In this document: piece after piece, positions 1-19,800 of the stretch
Layout: every line of letters begins with the position of its first letter
Position numbering within the stretch: the stretch's first letter is position 1
IMG/VR virus record: IMGVR_UViG_3300048930_000056
Location: 1 to 21,574 of that record
Length of the DNA: 21,574 nt
Source: a virus
Direction: 5' to 3' (one strand)
Made by a program: the position numbers and the translations under genes
Notes under the pieces: generated by a model
Database searches by the model: none
What the model saw: the letters and a program-made list of their open reading frames with translations, nothing else
Told to the model about the DNA's origin: nothing

Positions 1-416
1 TATGGATGCGGCGGCGCCGGCACTTCGGTCAGACCGCTGCGCTCGTAGTACGGCGAGCCGTTCGTTTGCGCGAGCGTGCTCGGCGTTCCTGTCTCCGTGA
101 CGCCCGGCACCCCTCGCCAGAACCATGCGCGCGTCGTGAAGTCGAACCCGGCCGCGCCGAGGATCTCGTAGTGATCGTGGCCGCCCGAGGACGCCACGAT
201 GAACGCGCCATCGGTCGAATAGTCGCGGTTGAAGTACCCCGACCCATACGCCTCGAACAGCGCCTTCGTGAATCGGCCCGTGTCCATGCCGTTGGGCGCC
301 ACTGCGGTGTGCGCGCCGGCCGCACCGACCAGCTTGGCCGCGCCGAGCGCCGGCAGACTTCCGCTTGACGGTGCTGCCGTCACGTTGATCCTGAGCGTTG
401 CGGTCGCGCGCGTCAT
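1..416 (-). CDS. Kelch/galactose-oxidase-like phage protein, 3' end missing
   Basis: This reading frame starts at ATG 416-414 and stays open for 138 codons to the left edge, so the C-terminus is outside the window. The ATG overlaps the TGA of the upstream tailspike gene (ATGA), which argues for translational coupling and fixes the start. After a short Ala/Gly-rich N-terminus (about residues 15-40), the segment at about residues 60-100 contains SSGGHDHYEILGAAGFDF followed by TTRAWFWRG. This resembles one blade of a kelch or galactose-oxidase-type beta propeller (GGH-(D/N)xY...F(D/N)...tW.R). Inference: a virion surface or receptor-associated protein at the tail tip, grouped with the fibre and spike genes upstream. 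Only one blade-like unit is visible, so the fold is uncertain. Confidence 0.6.
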   Translation of the reverse strand, partial: MTRATATLRINVTAAPSSGSLPALGAAKLVGAAGAHTAVAPNGMDTGRFTKALFEAYGSGYFNRDYSTDGAFIVASSGGHDHYEILGAAGFDFTTRAWFWRGVPGVTETGTPSTLAQTNGSPYYERSGLTEVPAPPHP

Positions 417-3400
417 AGCGTCACCAGCGTCGGTCGGTTGGCGTTCCCTGCCGGCCACGCCGGGTGATGGCCCTTGCCGCTCTTGTCTGATACGTCGCTC
501 GGCGTCGGGTTGATGCACGAGTACCAGCGATCCGGGTCGGTCGTGTCGTCTGCCGTCAGCGCGAGCTTGGCGTGGATCTCCGCGAGACTCATCGCGCGGT
601 CGTAGAGCATCAGGTGCCGCAGCGTGCCGCTCGGCGTCTCGCTGTTCGCGCTACCGCTCGCGGTCCACGGCGACGCGCCAAACCGGAACTTGAGCGCCGC
701 ACCGGACAGCGCGCAGTCGCCCGCATTGAACGTCTGCTCGATCACGAACGCCGGGTTGTTCTCGATGTCCGGCCAGAACCGGAACCGCACCTGCGCACCG
801 CCGTTGATGACTTCGACTGTGCGCGCCTGCGAGTACCAGACGCCCTTGGTCACGGCCAGCGCCGACCCGCCCGGCGAGGCGATGTAGTCGCTGCCGCCGA
901 TCGGCACCAGCTCGTGGTAGTGGGTCGTGAAACCCGCGCCGTAGTTGAGCGCCTGCCCGTTGCCGTTCACGGTCCCGTCGCACGGGTAGGGCGACGACCC
1001 GATGTAGTCGCCGCCGCCCGCGAATGTGTCATCCGCCCGACAGTGCCACGCCACCGCGTAGTACCCGGTCTGCTGGACGTAGCGGGCCTTCCAGATCACG
1101 GTATGGCTGTGCGCCGGCACCATGTCGGCCCCCGTCCAGTCGAGCCCGATGTTGCCGCCCGCGACGTTGTTGCTCGGGAACAGCAGGCCGGTCTGTGGCT
1201 GGACGGAGGATCGTGGCGTGATTCCGTACTCCGGATTGTCATTGAAGTAGTTCGCCGCAACGCTCGCGTAGTTGCTCGCCCCGGTCACGCGGCCCCATCC
1301 TTGCGATGCTCCCGTCACGCCGTTGTCTACAGCAGCAGCAAGCGACGCGAGTTGCATCCCGAACCACGGCAGCGACGATGAACCGTCGGCGAGGTCCGTG
1401 TTCGACGTGTGCTCCTTGAGCGTGAGGCCAGGCGTCGCGGCCAGGCTCCCGAGTCCGTTTGCCGACTCCATCTCTGCCAGCGCAGCGCCGAAAGTCGCGT
1501 ACCAGTTCTCGGGCGGCAGCCCGGTGCCGTCCGTTCCAAGCGGGAACGAGTACAGCGTGAATCGCCGCCAGTTCCAGTTGCCGGCCGCGCCATCCCCTGC
1601 GAGCCCGGCAGCGAATTTCAGTGCGTGACCAACCACCGCAGACAGCGACGACTGCGCAGCCGACGCGATCGGCAACGCAAGGTCTTTTGCCCACGCCATG
1701 ACGTGCTGCACCATCCCGTGCTGCCACCCAGCGCCCCACCATGCGCTCGATCCGCCCGGAGAGCCGTACAGCGACGTGCCCATCGACGAGTATTCGCCCA
1801 TCGTCCCAAGCGGATTGACCCATCCTGACGAGAACGTGCCGTTCACATAGGCCGACTGATAGAACGCCGCGTTGGCCTCGACCGCCGCCTTGAGAGACGC
1901 AAAAGCCGGGTGTGTGGTGGGCACTATCGCGGCAGACTGCGCGAGCGTGCGCAGCGACCAGGCTGCGCCGCGCACCGTATACGACCCGTTCCTTGTGTCG
2001 ATGACCCCCGCCGACCCGGACGCATAGAGATACGGCGCGGTTTCGTAGCTCGTCTCTCCACGGCGTCCATTCACCCTCGATTGAAGGTAGTTCCACCCCG
2101 CCCAGAACAGGCTTTCCTCCAGGAACCACCAGCGTCCGGTGATGAGCCACGGCAAATATCCGTAGCTCGGCTGGTGCGTCGTCACGGCCGTGCCGTTTTC
2201 ACCACCGCTGCCTGCGGGGATTGTCGGCGTGTCCTGTATCTGCAACGACGCACTCGGATAGTCCGCGAAGCGCATCGGCTCGTTCGGGGCACCTGCCGCA
2301 CCTTGCGTACTCGCCGCTTCGGCGCGAAAGTGCGTCGACCACGACCCGCCCGACAGCCCGAATGCGATCGACGCCCTAAACGCTCGTGCATCTCCGCTCG
2401 TGGCGTACAGCGCATGAGGAAGATTGAGGATGGCCGCGGAACTGCCGGCCGTTCCCATGTTTGCGTTGATGCCCGCCAGCGTGTTTGGCGAGTACGTCTG
2501 CTGGAGCGAATTGAGCTTCGTCGTGCTCGGGTTCGTCCATCCGAAGTTCGGCACCATCTTGGTCGCGCGCAGGTACGCGACATCGTGCCGGGGCACGATC
2601 TGCGGATCGGTTCCCACCCAGTACGAGAACGTCGAGCCCGAGAGCAGCGGAATGCGCGTGTGGTGCTTGATGTCGATGGACTGGCTGAACCGCTGCACGC
2701 CGCCGATCGTGAGCACCCAGGTGCGCACGTCGTTGACCGGGTTCGCTACCGTCAGGTAGCCGTTCTCGGCCCACGGGAAGATTTCGACCGCGCCGCCCTT
2801 GTAGAGCCGCACGTCGAACCACGCGACCAGGTGACTCGATCCTGCAATCGCCCGCCGATAGAGCCAGTTCGACATGACCGGCCCGGTGCAGACCGTGCGA
2901 TGCCGCGCGGCGGTGCCGATGAGCGAATTGAGCGTGAACGAGTCGCCGCCTGCGACCAGCGTCACGGTCGGCATCGCCGCGGCCAGGTCCGTCTCGGTCA
3001 GCGCCGTGCCGCTGCGGTTGGTCGCGGACACCGAGAGGGCGATGTTCTTGAGCACGGCCGCCGAGCACGTCGCGCGCCCGGCGATGATCGCGTGCCTGAG
3101 CGATCCATCCGGCCAGTAGGTGGTCGGCACCGCCTGCCAGTCGGTCAGGTCGGAGTTGACGAACTGGCCCGCCGGCACGTCGCCCTGCTTGAAGGCGTGG
3201 CCGAAGGCAAACGGAAGGTTCGTGCCGCCGACCGCGCTCGTCACGCCGAACGTCGGCAGGATGCCCGGCGTCACCGGCGCCGCGTCGATGTTCCAGCCGA
3301 TCAGCACATCCTTGGTGATCGAGGTCAGCGCGGAATCGCTCACACCGAAGTCCACGCTCCAGCCCGACGTGATCGTCGCGGTCGGCGACGACGTGATGAG

Positions 3401-4045
3401 CCCGGTTGCGAAGTTCAGCGTCGTGCCGGCGGGCAGCGAGAACGTCGCGTGGTCGTAGGTGTAGGGCGGCACACCCCCGGTCACATGCTGCGAGAGGTCG
3501 TAGGTGCCGCCTTGCGTGAGGTCGATCTGCGCGGGCGGCGTGAACGAGAGCGGCGACGACCCGGCCGCCGCCACCGTCCACCCGAGCACGATGTCCTTCG
3601 TGACCGGCGCGCCCACCGACCAGCTCGGCGAGTAATCGGCCTGCACCGGCACGTTGCCCTGCGGGATGAACTCCACCGTCCCGAGATACCCGCCCTGGCC
3701 GGTCTCGAAGGTCGGCAGGCTCCAGGTGAAGTCGGTTCCCGCGTGGCCGAACGAGCCTGAGCACGAGCGCGCGCCGGACTCGAAGCGCAGCGTCCAGCCC
3801 GCGGGGATCGCGCCGCCCGCACCGCTCGTCACAGCAAACGACGTCACCTCTCCGATGACGATCCGCCCGCCGGCCACCGTCGCCCACGGCGTGCCCATCG
3901 TCCCGCTGGCGCGCGCGGCGTCCGTCTCGTCGTAGACCGTGACCGAGACCGGATCGACGATCGCATCCACGACCGCCTGCCCCTTGTCGGCGGCCAGCGA
4001 TTGCGCGTCGTACTCGGCGCGAGTGGCGGCGTCGAGAGTGAGCAT
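413..4045 (-). CDS. Tailspike-like protein with Ig-like, PcRGLX/YetA-type lyase-like and LamG-like regions
   Basis: A 1210-aa protein, the largest in the window. Residues 1-150 are an unrecognised N-terminus, possibly the virion anchor. Residues about 165-255 look like a putative-Ig (He_PIG) module, with GGVPPYTYDHATFSLPAGTT and then TGLITSSPT. Residues about 263-330 match the N-terminal RIFT-barrel signature of PcRGLX/YetA-type exo-rhamnogalacturonan lyases: TFGVTS...LPFAFGHAFKQGDVPAG, then WPDGSLRHAII. Residues about 500-940 are Trp/Tyr/Ala-rich and helical-looking, consistent with the alpha/alpha toroid of that family. Residues about 955-1160 look like a concanavalin/LamG-type beta sandwich ending in LMLYDRAMSLAEI. 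Inference: a host-polysaccharide-binding and probably polysaccharide-degrading tailspike. Catalytic residues were not identified. The ATG at 4045 follows an in-frame TAG directly. Annotation as a generic Ig-domain phage protein would be the conservative alternative. Confidence 0.85.
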   Translation of the reverse strand: MLTLDAATRAEYDAQSLAADKGQAVVDAIVDPVSVTVYDETDAARASGTMGTPWATVAGGRIVIGEVTSFAVTSGAGGAIPAGWTLRFESGARSCSGSFGHAGTDFTWSLPTFETGQGGYLGTVEFIPQGNVPVQADYSPSWSVGAPVTKDIVLGWTVAAAGSSPLSFTPPAQIDLTQGGTYDLSQHVTGGVPPYTYDHATFSLPAGTTLNFATGLITSSPTATITSGWSVDFGVSDSALTSITKDVLIGWNIDAAPVTPGILPTFGVTSAVGGTNLPFAFGHAFKQGDVPAGQFVNSDLTDWQAVPTTYWPDGSLRHAIIAGRATCSAAVLKNIALSVSATNRSGTALTETDLAAAMPTVTLVAGGDSFTLNSLIGTAARHRTVCTGPVMSNWLYRRAIAGSSHLVAWFDVRLYKGGAVEIFPWAENGYLTVANPVNDVRTWVLTIGGVQRFSQSIDIKHHTRIPLLSGSTFSYWVGTDPQIVPRHDVAYLRATKMVPNFGWTNPSTTKLNSLQQTYSPNTLAGINANMGTAGSSAAILNLPHALYATSGDARAFRASIAFGLSGGSWSTHFRAEAASTQGAAGAPNEPMRFADYPSASLQIQDTPTIPAGSGGENGTAVTTHQPSYGYLPWLITGRWWFLEESLFWAGWNYLQSRVNGRRGETSYETAPYLYASGSAGVIDTRNGSYTVRGAAWSLRTLAQSAAIVPTTHPAFASLKAAVEANAAFYQSAYVNGTFSSGWVNPLGTMGEYSSMGTSLYGSPGGSSAWWGAGWQHGMVQHVMAWAKDLALPIASAAQSSLSAVVGHALKFAAGLAGDGAAGNWNWRRFTLYSFPLGTDGTGLPPENWYATFGAALAEMESANGLGSLAATPGLTLKEHTSNTDLADGSSSLPWFGMQLASLAAAVDNGVTGASQGWGRVTGASNYASVAANYFNDNPEYGITPRSSVQPQTGLLFPSNNVAGGNIGLDWTGADMVPAHSHTVIWKARYVQQTGYYAVAWHCRADDTFAGGGDYIGSSPYPCDGTVNGNGQALNYGAGFTTHYHELVPIGGSDYIASPGGSALAVTKGVWYSQARTVEVINGGAQVRFRFWPDIENNPAFVIEQTFNAGDCALSGAALKFRFGASPWTASGSANSETPSGTLRHLMLYDRAMSLAEIHAKLALTADDTTDPDRWYSCINPTPSDVSDKSGKGHHPAWPAGNANRPTLVTL

Positions 4046-4154: not shown

Positions 4155-4652
4155 TTATGCCGAAGTGTCCCCTTTGACTCGGAACGTCGCGCCGTCGCCG
4201 GTGTAGGCCGCGGCGCCCGCATTCACGACGCGCTTGACCCAGATCGCCTGGTACTGCCCCGGCGGGATGTTGCCGATCGAGAGCGCGGCGCCCTCGGTGG
4301 CGGCGGCCGAGAACGACTCGCCCACCGGTGCGGTCGTCTCGTTGGCGACCGTCTCGGCGGTTCCGTTCACGCCTTCGCCCGCGAGCGCGATCGTCACGGC
4401 GGTGTCGGCGCTAGGCGTGTTCGACTGAATCCAGATCTTCGCCGACTGCAGGGTGAGCGTCGCGTGCGTGTTCTTCACGTAGTAGCAGCGATAGTCGGTC
4501 GTGCCGGCCGAGGCTTCCGCGCTCGACACGTTGTCGAACAGGTTCGCGGGCGCGAGCGTCGAGCTGATCGCACCGCCGAGGGAGAGGTTCGGATCGGTAT
4601 TGGCGGCACCCCCGGAGAGGTACACCTTGATGTCGGCCGCAACGATGGGCAT
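4155..4652 (-). CDS. Conserved phage virion structural protein (165 aa)
   Basis: A 165-aa protein with a strongly beta-type composition (Thr/Ala/Gly-rich, no membrane segment, no signal peptide). It contains DIKVYLSGGAANTDPNLSLG, then YRCYYVKNTHATLTLQSAKI and IPPGQYQAIWVKR. I recognise this as a type of small structural protein seen beside tail-fibre genes in many phages of Proteobacteria; its exact role in the virion is not known to me. The start ATG 4652 is supported by AGGAG at 4663-4659, which overlaps the TAG stop of the collagen-like fibre gene (4664-4662), so the two are translationally linked. It sits between the fibre and the tailspike, which suggests a tail or fibre-associated role. 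An alternative ATG at 4657 lies in another frame and is not used. Confidence 0.85.
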   Translation of the reverse strand: MPIVAADIKVYLSGGAANTDPNLSLGGAISSTLAPANLFDNVSSAEASAGTTDYRCYYVKNTHATLTLQSAKIWIQSNTPSADTAVTIALAGEGVNGTAETVANETTAPVGESFSAAATEGAALSIGNIPPGQYQAIWVKRVVNAGAAAYTGDGATFRVKGDTSA

Positions 4653-4658
4653 GGCAAG

Positions 4659-4663
4659 CTCCT
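4659..4663 (-). promoter_or_regulatory. Ribosome binding site overlapping the fibre stop codon
   Basis: AGGAG on the minus strand, 6 nt before ATG 4652. It shares bases with the TAG that ends the collagen-like fibre gene, which decides the start of the 165-aa protein and indicates coupled translation. Confidence 0.7.
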
Positions 4664-5843
4664 AGAGTTTCATGACGTAGGCCAGCGCGTAGAACAGGGG
4701 TCGGATATCGACAGACGCGCCACTGCCGGCCGCTTGGGTTTGACCGCTCACCGAGTGCGCGTGCGCGCCGCCGGTCGTGGTACTGATGGAGTGCGAGTGA
4801 TCGCCAGCCGAAGCGGTCAGCGATGTGGTTGCGTATTCGTTTGCGGAAACGCGGGTCTCGACCTTTACGGACGTAACACCGCCGCTCGTGTTCGATCCGT
4901 TCACTGTGTGCGTGTGCGCACCGTTGCTCGAGGTCGAGCCCGAATGCGCGTGCGAGCCCTGCGAGTCGGTGGCGAGCGACACCGCGTGCTGATGCACCGG
5001 CATCTGCGCCTGGGTGAGCGTCACGCTGTTCGCGCCGCCCACCGCGCCCGGCGCATAGCTGTTGCCCGCGCCGACGATGAACCGATCGCGCAGGTCGGGC
5101 GTGCCGCCCGTGCCATCGCATAGATGCCAGCCGCTCGGCACTGAGGCGGTCGAGCCCGACCACATGCAGATGATCCCGGCGACCAGCCCCTCACCTGCCG
5201 GCCCCGGCACGCCCTGCGGCCCCTGCGGGCCGGTGGCGCCCTGCGGACCGGCCGGACCCTGCGGACCTTCCGGCCCCGTGGCGCCGGTCGGCCCCGCCGG
5301 CCCTTGCGGCCCTTGCCCCCAGGCGATGCCCGCCGTCCAGTTGCCAGCCGGGCCGTTGCGGAAGTAGATCGCGCCAGCGTCGAGCGCCAGGAATGAGAAC
5401 CCCTCCGGCTCGTTGTCGTAGGCCGAGCGGTCGGAGAGCAGGAGCGCCGTCACGTCCGGCTCGAACGAGTAGCCCTGCGGGCCTTGAGCGCCAGTGGGTC
5501 CGGCCGGACCCGTGGGACCGGTCATCCCGATCGGGCCCTGCACGCCCTGCGGACCGGTCGGCCCCACCGGACCCTGCGGACCGATCGGCCCGGGTACCGG
5601 CGTCATCTCGGCGGCAATGAGCGCCGCCGCATCGCCCGAGAGCGCGGCAGCCGTCACCACGCCGTCGCGCAGCGTGCCGTCGTCGTTCTGGATGAGCGCG
5701 AGGTTCTCGCGGATCGCGTCGGTCGTTTCCCCGATCGCTGCGAACTCGACGTCGAGCGCCGGCAGCGATACCAGGTCACGCCCGGCGGTGCCGGCGGACT
5801 CGCTGAAATTCGTCTGCGGGGTGTACGATGGGGGCTGCGGCAT
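4662..5843 (-). CDS. Collagen-like tail fibre with tail-collar-type C-terminal domain
   Basis: A 393-aa fibre protein. Residues 1-80 are helical and probably attach to the virion. Two collagen-type Gly-X-Y blocks (about 83-124 and 177-219) flank a small globular part (about 125-175) with [14 protein letters not shown]. The C-terminal third is tail-collar-like: [20 protein letters not shown], then [14 protein letters not shown], and a series of HxH pairs (HQH, HAH, HTH, HSH, HAH between residues 284 and 363). These resemble the metal-binding His pairs of trimeric phage fibre tips. It ends with [15 protein letters not shown]. Collagen blocks imply a trimeric fibre that contacts the host surface. 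The gene follows a copy of the 16-bp conserved element, 21 nt upstream of the ATG. GC-rich Gly-Pro repeats make the DNA itself repetitive. Confidence 0.9.
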
Positions 5844-5864: not shown

Positions 5865-5880
5865 GATTGGCTTAATCCAC
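5865..5880 (-). promoter_or_regulatory. Conserved 16-bp element, copy A (upstream of fibre gene)
   Basis: GTGGATTAAGCCAATC on the minus strand, identical to the copies at 15814-15829 and 19785-19800. It lies 21 nt before the fibre ATG at 5843 and is followed by GCGGGTTGGCAG. It also sits one base before the GTG start of the plus-strand membrane gene, so this copy is in a divergent control region. Flanking it, ATCCAC-T-GTGGAT forms an inverted repeat. There is no recognisable sigma-70 -35/-10 pair, so a phage-specific promoter or operator is inferred. Confidence 0.65.
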
Positions 5881-14610: not shown

Positions 14611-15675
14611 TCAGGTGAGCGCGAGCGCCGCGTGCGCGCTGCGCATGTTGCAGGTCATCGCACCCTTCCAGGTGAGCGCCATGTACACCACGTAGCGGTC
14701 GTGCGGGCGCGGGGGCTTGCGGCTCACCATGTCCTGGCCGGCGAGCGGGCGCAGCTTCAGGTGGCGCAAGTTCAGGATGTACCCGCGCTTGTTCCAGCTC
14801 GTGGCCGGGCTCACGATGCCGCCGAAGTCGTCGTCGAACTCCGGGCACCAGGTCAAATCCACGCCCTTGAACGCCATGCCGGTGAGGCCCGGGTCCATCT
14901 GCGTGCCACCCTTGGCCGGCGTCTGGATGAACCGCTGGATGCCGCCCGACGCGGCGACGGTGGCCGCCTCGAACGCGTCGTAGAACGCGCCGCCGACGAA
15001 GATGTGCGTGGGCCGCCCGCCGTGACGCACGCAGTTGCGCCACTCGGTCTCCATCTTCGTCAGGATGTCCGACGACGACAGGCCGGTCTCGCGGTTCGCC
15101 AGCCACCACGGGTACGTGTACGCGTCCAGCCCGCCCACCACCTCGGTGCCCGCCCCGACCGGAGCCGCGGTGATCGGCACCAGGTGATCCAGCCCCGCGA
15201 TCGCGTCGGCCGAGCTCGACCCGTCGAAGTGCAGCGCCGCCGAGAACTTCTCCTCGAAGCCCAGCCGCAGCACTTCGGACTGCTCGGTGAGCAGGTTGGT
15301 GAGCTGGACCATCTCGGCGTCCGACGCCTTGGCCTGCCGATCGTCGGTCACGATGATGCCGTTCTGGCTCAGGCGATCCTCGTCGATCATCACGCCGTCG
15401 TGCGCGCTGCGCCACGGGTACTTGACCTGCTCGATCGTGTTGCGCTCGTTGTAGGTGACGGCGCCGGCACCGCGGTACCACTGGAAGTTCGAGTCGTAGC
15501 GCGCGCGCAGCTGCTCGACGATGTACTCCTTGGCGCCGGGGAACTCCGACTTGCGCGACTGAAGCGCCTTGAGCAGCGGGCGATCGACCGACACCTGGTC
15601 GACCGGGTTGTTCTTCATGTAGAAGTCGAGGCCGACCTTCGCGGCTTCGGCCAGTTGGTTCACGGTGAACGGCAT
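14611..15675 (-). CDS. Major capsid protein
   Basis: A 354-aa protein starting MPFTVNQLAEAAKVGLDFYM, with the pattern of phage coat proteins: helical N-arm, a mixed alpha/beta core with YIVEQLRARYDSNFQWYRG, NNL-type LTNLLTEQ helix, YTYPWWLANRETG, and a C-terminal strand region (RGYILNLRHLKLRPL). YPWWxN is a recurrent feature of podophage/siphophage coat proteins presumed to have the HK97 fold. Start choice: ATG 15675 has AGGAG 6 nt upstream; an earlier in-frame start at 15753 would add an Arg/His-rich stretch and lacks a site. The gene stands alone between an intrinsic terminator plus 16-bp element (138-nt leader) and a GC hairpin, suggesting separate high expression. The specific coat family was not resolved. 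Confidence 0.85.
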   Translation of the reverse strand: MPFTVNQLAEAAKVGLDFYMKNNPVDQVSVDRPLLKALQSRKSEFPGAKEYIVEQLRARYDSNFQWYRGAGAVTYNERNTIEQVKYPWRSAHDGVMIDEDRLSQNGIIVTDDRQAKASDAEMVQLTNLLTEQSEVLRLGFEEKFSAALHFDGSSSADAIAGLDHLVPITAAPVGAGTEVVGGLDAYTYPWWLANRETGLSSSDILTKMETEWRNCVRHGGRPTHIFVGGAFYDAFEAATVAASGGIQRFIQTPAKGGTQMDPGLTGMAFKGVDLTWCPEFDDDFGGIVSPATSWNKRGYILNLRHLKLRPLAGQDMVSRKPPRPHDRYVVYMALTWKGAMTCNMRSAHAALALT

Positions 15676-15681
15676 GATGGG

Positions 15682-15686
15682 CTCCT
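15682..15686 (-). promoter_or_regulatory. Ribosome binding site fixing the capsid start
   Basis: AGGAG on the minus strand with a 6-nt spacer before ATG 15675. It favours this start over an in-frame codon at 15753 that would add 26 Arg/His-rich residues. Confidence 0.8.
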
Positions 15687-15813
15687 GTGGATGCGAACGA
15701 GTGCGGTGTTGCCGCTCCGATTCGCGGTGGCGAGCCGCAAAACAGCCGATCACGTCGGGCGGTGCCCGGGCGACGAGCCCCGGATACAGTCAGACGCCAC
15801 GCTGCCAAAGGCC

Positions 15814-15829
15814 GATTGGCTTAATCCAC
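15814..15829 (-). promoter_or_regulatory. Conserved 16-bp element, copy B (upstream of capsid gene)
   Basis: GTGGATTAAGCCAATC on the minus strand, identical to the other two copies. It begins directly after the T-run of an intrinsic terminator and is followed by GGCCTTTGGCAG, sharing TTGGCAG at the same offset with copy A. The capsid start is 138 nt downstream. A promoter that restarts transcription after the terminator is the simplest reading. Confidence 0.7.
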
Positions 15830-19784: not shown

Positions 19785-19800
19785 GATTGGCTTAATCCAC
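19785..19800 (-). promoter_or_regulatory. Conserved 16-bp element, copy C (upstream of portal-side genes)
   Basis: GTGGATTAAGCCAATC on the minus strand, identical to copies A and B. It begins two bases after the TGA of the 76-aa gene and is followed by CGGGGGTTGTACA. The next start codon (19762) is 22 nt downstream, the same distance as for copy A, so it is placed to drive or control the 126-aa/portal/head-protein/scaffold unit. Confidence 0.65.

Follow-up and report, generated by a model that had tools for sequence, protein, structure and literature searches.

A probable phage tailspike with a PcRGLX-like core, encoded next to a kelch-like propeller gene

The stretch of viral DNA analysed here (IMG/VR record IMGVR_UViG_3300048930_000056, positions 1 to 21,574; 21,574 nucleotides, hereafter the window) carries on its minus strand the gene of a 1210-residue protein, P0001, whose conserved core resembles PcRGLX, a pectin-degrading lyase type known from fungi and bacteria, in its architecture and probably degrades the exopolysaccharide of the host. 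Along the minus strand, the terminase, portal and capsid genes are followed by other structural genes, the gene of a tail fibre with collagen repeats and a collar domain, that of a 165-residue protein and then that of P0001 (Table 1). The same virus is also represented by a longer contig, IMGVR_UViG_3300048587_000027 (L002), which encodes an identical protein, runs past window position 1 and contains beyond P0001 a propeller, an fn3 protein, other genes and then an open reading frame (ORF) that we call amidase-like from reading its sequence, as it has no profile match. The P0001 gene sits in the tail-fibre/spike module, after the collagen/collar tail fibre and ahead of the final genes at the downstream end of the contig. 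P0001 had no match in PHROGs and NCBIfam profile searches and none in a heuristic signal-peptide check, and its core is preceded by a 262-residue N-terminal extension. It is probably a podovirus protein that forms the tailspike or the tip of the tail fibre.

Table 1. Features of the P0001 locus (window coordinates; aa, amino acids; pLDDT, predicted local distance difference test)
Feature	Position	Strand	Basis or remark
Tailspike-like protein P0001, 1210 aa	413..4045	minus	ATG at 4045, stop 413-415
N-terminal beta domain, residues 1-126; putative virion attachment	3668..4045	minus	pLDDT about 70-84 over most of residues 21-100
Putative Ig-like (He_PIG) module, residues 169-244	3314..3541	minus	Pfam PF05345, sub-threshold
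PcRGLX-like beta region, residues 265-466	2648..3253	minus	PF19501 match at 278-326; modelled strands
Helical, alpha/alpha-toroid-like region, residues 489-938	1232..2581	minus	about 12 long helices modelled
C-terminal module, residues 946-1210	416..1210	minus	recurs in L080, L082
Start of kelch-like beta-propeller gene	3..416	minus	complete gene: 387 aa, L002:11630-12790
Phage protein upstream of P0001, 165 aa, phrog_13135 (unknown function)	4155..4652	minus	PHROGs match
Collagen-repeat tail fibre with tail-collar domain	4662..5843	minus	profile matches

An earlier note on this DNA had taken a TFG...WPDGSLRH pattern at residues of about 263-318 for the mark of a PcRGLX-type RIFT barrel. The motif, TFG..PFAFGHAFKQGDVPAG..WPDGSLRH at residues 265-318, is real and more than a chance resemblance, because the profile of the N-terminal RIFT barrel, PF19501 (PcRGLX_1st), matches exactly there (E-value 0.0018, 18.5 bits) and also matches 39 of the 44 homologues, at best with an E-value of 2e-7. 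The protein gp39 of EBPR siphovirus 1 exceeds the curated cut-off of this profile (22.1 bits), and the motif residues D313, G314 and S315 are invariant in 44 sequences. Membership in the rhamnogalacturonan-lyase family itself, with which the note had equated the core, was not supported. Neither PcRGLX_2nd (PF21345) nor PcRGLX_3rd (PF21346) matched P0001 at E<=10, although B. subtilis and Bacteroides ihuae matched the former as controls and the control genomes also matched the latter. Hence, P0001 does not belong to PL26, and its core family is an undescribed sister family. A search of PDB sequences with P0001 alone returned nothing.

The conserved module (residues ~257-950) was modelled with AlphaFold as a RIFT-like beta domain followed by about 12 helices, with strands at residues 265-466 and long helices from 489 to about 935, much as the note had proposed in placing a toroid at 500-940. 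The core model calculated from a 21-sequence alignment had a pLDDT of 79.6 and a predicted template modelling score (pTM) of 0.88, and with a 44-sequence alignment most of the core reached a pLDDT of 90-98. For both models, ranks 1-11 of a Foldseek comparison with the PDB were all PL26 PcRGLX chains (best E-values 2.8e-4 and 6.7e-4), the GH105 and GH88 toroids came next, and no beta-helix spike was among the matches listed. A library of viral structures contained two clear relatives, neither of which has a named function. Neither outcome that the note had named as a refutation, a structure lacking the RIFT barrel plus toroid or a beta-helix spike as the best match, was seen. The interpretation given in the note is partly supported: judging from the models, it appears to hold for the architecture and not for family membership.

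The toroid-like region also contains conserved His, Arg and Tyr residues of the kind that the note had suggested looking for. R574, H624, R692 and R699 (P0001 numbering) are invariant charged residues of the helical part in all 44 sequences, and Y491 (43/44), W696 (43/44) and H572 (40/44) are nearly so. Of the acidic residues, D552 (40/44) and E644 (38/44) are well conserved, and no Asp or Glu of the toroid is invariant. As an invariant acid is missing there and His and Arg are invariant, His/Tyr/Arg lyase chemistry appears to be favoured over hydrolysis.

Two alignment-based scans for viral relatives gave 22 loci and then 46 loci on 45 IMG/VR contigs, P0001's own virus included, and a scan of bacterial genomes gave 47 loci with the core. 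A single 657-position profile is matched along most of its length by nearly all relatives. Among annotated phage records, gp39 of EBPR siphovirus 1 (AEI71203.1) was the sole core relative detected, and a search for close viral relatives with gp39 as the query found nothing. The RTX protein WP_203102993 of Skermanella rosea aligns to residues 281-725 of P0001 with an E-value of 3e-10. The tree requires 8 switches between viral and bacterial rows, and supported branches force 4 or more of them, so the core gene has crossed between the two repeatedly. Many bacterial copies begin with a signal peptide or a lipobox, as judged heuristically. Exosortase-A-associated hydrolases (TIGR03100/TIGR03101) are present in 11 of the 47 bacterial loci, a Wzx flippase in 12, either of them in 13, and the propeller in 11. 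The core adjoins a Wzy-like ligase and a polysaccharide deacetylase in L072 and an epimerase in L066, and in Polyangium, a sugar transporter and a protein carrying a rhamnogalacturonan I-lyase beta domain are encoded near the core. An unbiased scan of 100 neighbours found flippases in 4, and the exopolysaccharide context of the bacterial copies is a partial pattern.

On several siphophage-like contigs (L010, L013, L027 and others, L083, L084, L090), the core comes directly after terminase-portal-protease and the gene following these, or immediately ahead of the terminase. This head-region placement comes from profile matches for L010 and L083 and from shared gene clusters for the other contigs, and it suggests that core genes beside terminase-portal-protease encode capsid-displayed or soluble enzymes. 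One viral protein contains two tandem core copies (L098:425-5062). In L017 (3104-5486), a reverse transcriptase (phrog_1423) with three 146-nucleotide near-repeats (73-81%) is located just upstream of the core gene. This arrangement looks like a diversity-generating retroelement. We rejected the idea of its acting on the L017 core gene, as the repeats are upstream of that gene and outside it.

The ATG of the propeller gene overlaps the stop codon of P0001 (ATGA, window 416). The propeller beside P0001 had no match in Pfam, Kelch/propeller profiles included, and a first hidden Markov model built from bacterial propellers did not detect it; its homologue in L007 (70% identical) matches PF24681 weakly (3.6e-4). 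In hhalign, a three-sequence profile of the propeller beside P0001 matched the propeller family with a probability of 97.1% (E-value 5e-11, 341 columns), with shuffled controls at 0.1-0.2%. Members of the family are encoded next to the core in bacteria (L039, L051) or are fused to it in the viruses L078 and L079, and the bacterial propeller partners match kelch models. In the tree, P0001 clusters with nine other viral proteins, supported by an approximate likelihood ratio test (SH-aLRT) value of 100. In 9/9 testable members of this clade the propeller is encoded within two genes of the core or is fused to it; in the remaining one, L008, the contig breaks off inside the core.

The N-terminal 240 residues of P0001 are common to L009 (45% identity), and from its position the N-terminal domain most likely anchors the protein to the tail. 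The N-terminal, C-terminal and propeller parts had no match in annotated phage records. The Ig-like module named in the note is putative and weakly supported, its match to PF05345 (E-value 0.019, 15.8 bits) being below the cut-off of 24 and the region being poorly modelled. A related stretch occurs in L007, in L009 and in an ORF that closely precedes the tape measure of Corynebacterium phage IME1320_01. Two short stretches, ADYSPSWSV and TKDIVLGWTV (residues about 135-160 and 228-252), flank this module, and a downstream ORF of 483 residues in L002 (14362-15813, plus strand) contains many short repeats of the type xxDYAxxWxV that resemble them. The C-terminal 265 residues recur in L080 and L082 (31-32%, 3e-22) N-terminal of the core, which marks them as a mobile module. 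The LamG-like nature that the note had assigned to the C-terminus was not confirmed, since a Pfam scan of this module found no match at E<=0.5 and the pLDDT from about residue 949 is mostly below 40, with no confident model.

The computation shows how the domains are ordered, that the family is conserved, which structures match best, that the gene lies in the tail region, that it is linked to the propeller and that some bacterial relatives have an exopolysaccharide-locus context. The virion attachment, enzymatic activity, lyase chemistry and substrate of P0001 are inferred. In our judgement, P0001 is probably a tailspike that degrades exopolysaccharide and has an uncommon fold for a depolymerase; it is more likely a lyase than a hydrolase. 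As relatives are found in bacterial exopolysaccharide gene clusters, it probably cuts the host slime. Several observations weigh against this reading. The PF19501 match of P0001 (E-values of 0.0009-0.0018 over the searches) is below the curated cut-off. A sequence link to the PDB entries of PcRGLX, obtained with a 21-sequence profile (E-value 0.12), was gone with the 44-sequence profile and is not relied on. The Foldseek template modelling scores were 0.07-0.26 (at most 0.26 for PcRGLX) with a large root-mean-square deviation, so the match is local or domain-wise and consists of shared domain types and order without a demonstrated global superposition. Position 575, an Asp in 40/44 sequences, is an Ala in P0001 and in its nearest relative, L007. 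Finally, many phage relatives are located in the head/packaging region and not in the tail region, and signal peptides occur on some, so the family is not made up of tailspikes alone.

Three other explanations were weighed. P0001 could have the same fold and be a glycoside hydrolase, either GH105/GH88-like or an inverting toroid hydrolase, which would fit the rank of the GH105 and GH88 toroids right after PcRGLX and the good conservation of D552 and E644. However, the toroid is without an invariant Asp or Glu and D575 is lost in P0001, while His and Arg are invariant, and we find a hydrolase rather unlikely. The Ala at position 575, the flanking Ig-like and other modules and the divergent toroid would also suit a catalytically dead carbohydrate-binding spike, in which the fold was kept for host recognition alone. 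Such a spike is improbable, as P0001 keeps every residue that is conserved in 44/44 sequences, H624, R574, R692 and R699 among them. The siphophage relatives directly behind the terminase-portal-protease genes and the signal peptides of some relatives raise the question of whether P0001 is a soluble or capsid-displayed enzyme that lies near tail genes by chance. We consider this unlikely for a protein that has no signal-peptide match, carries its long N-terminal extension and is placed after the tail-fibre gene.

If P0001 is indeed an exopolysaccharide-degrading tailspike, its N-terminal domain would hold the spike on the tail, and its core (~257-950), made of the RIFT-like beta domain, a short beta-sheet region and the alpha/alpha-toroid-like part, would be the polysaccharide-degrading enzyme. 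Most likely, the core would cleave an acidic host exopolysaccharide by beta-elimination at a predicted site formed by H624, R574, R692, R699 and perhaps Y491. This cleavage would let the virion reach the cell surface, and the kelch-like propeller encoded with P0001 may act jointly with it or beside it. More tentatively, the core and the propeller could constitute one polysaccharide-processing module, in which the core would represent a new family of polysaccharide lyases and the propeller would be its dedicated partner. Bacteria would use this module in their own exosortase-A exopolysaccharide loci and, having passed between hosts and viruses several times, it would serve as a viral depolymerase, sometimes in fused form (L078, L079). 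With this family, the rare toroid class gains a well-defined sequence profile, some 45 contigs from viruses, candidates for the catalytic residues and a linked partner gene. Annotators could now name core proteins that are at present called hypothetical. The exosortase-A loci housing some bacterial homologues provide a substrate lead in the form of their exopolysaccharides, and the idea that phages share the slime-processing enzyme of their host becomes testable.

Two further observations concern other parts of the window. The exact 16-mer GTGGATTAAGCCAATC occurs three times on the minus strand (window 5865-5880, 15814-15829 and 19785-19800; 0.02 expected by chance), and each copy precedes a minus-strand gene, namely the tail fibre, the capsid and the ORF at 19382-. 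These repeats are possibly a promoter or another regulatory element. Between the capsid protein (window 14611-15753) and its counterparts in Myxococcus phages Mx8 and Mx9, Stenotrophomonas phage BUCT555, Rhizobium phage RHph_N65 and Microcystis phage Mae-Yong1326-1, identity is only 24-26%, which indicates a poorly sampled podovirus lineage.

With the PL26 exo-rhamnogalacturonan lyase PcRGLX (PDB 5XQ3, 5XQG, 5XQJ, 5XQO) and the bacterial PcRGLX/YetA-like Pfam families, P0001 appears to share the order of an N-terminal RIFT motif, a beta part and a helical toroid-like part. PL26 is a compact family of 1657 sequences, of which a single enzyme (EC 4.2.2.24) has been characterised (PMC10461819). 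P0001 differs in that its beta region spans about 200 residues in all, whereas PcRGLX_2nd alone has 360 positions, and in that it is not detectably PL26 by sequence, the PcRGLX_2nd and PcRGLX_3rd profiles having no match. In the library searched, there was no paper on PcRGLX-like phage proteins and none using the term PcRGLX; the phage protein with a rhamnogalacturonan-lyase-like domain described in PMC13243795 is a beta-helix protein. Phage depolymerases, whether known or predicted, are beta-helices in the great majority, and the P0001 core would fall into the same rare fold class as the phage alpha/alpha-toroid depolymerases. In the DepoScope survey of INPHARED, alpha/alpha toroids made up 11 of 984 matches to polysaccharide-degrading folds (1.1%), and the training of DepoScope omitted this class (PMC11326577), which bears out the note's remark that such a core is odd for a phage spike. 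The same core is found in gp39 of EBPR siphovirus 1 and on some 45 IMG/VR contigs. Unlike P0001, gp39 is a nearly bare core, annotated as 'hypothetical protein', encoded in the head/packaging region and followed by an fn3-repeat protein. The secreted bacterial homologues in exosortase-A/exopolysaccharide loci (Massilia, Noviherbaspirillum and others) and WP_203102993 have the core with the invariant His and Arg residues of P0001, and some of them are paired with a propeller. However, they often carry a signal peptide or lipobox where the phage protein has its N-terminal domain.

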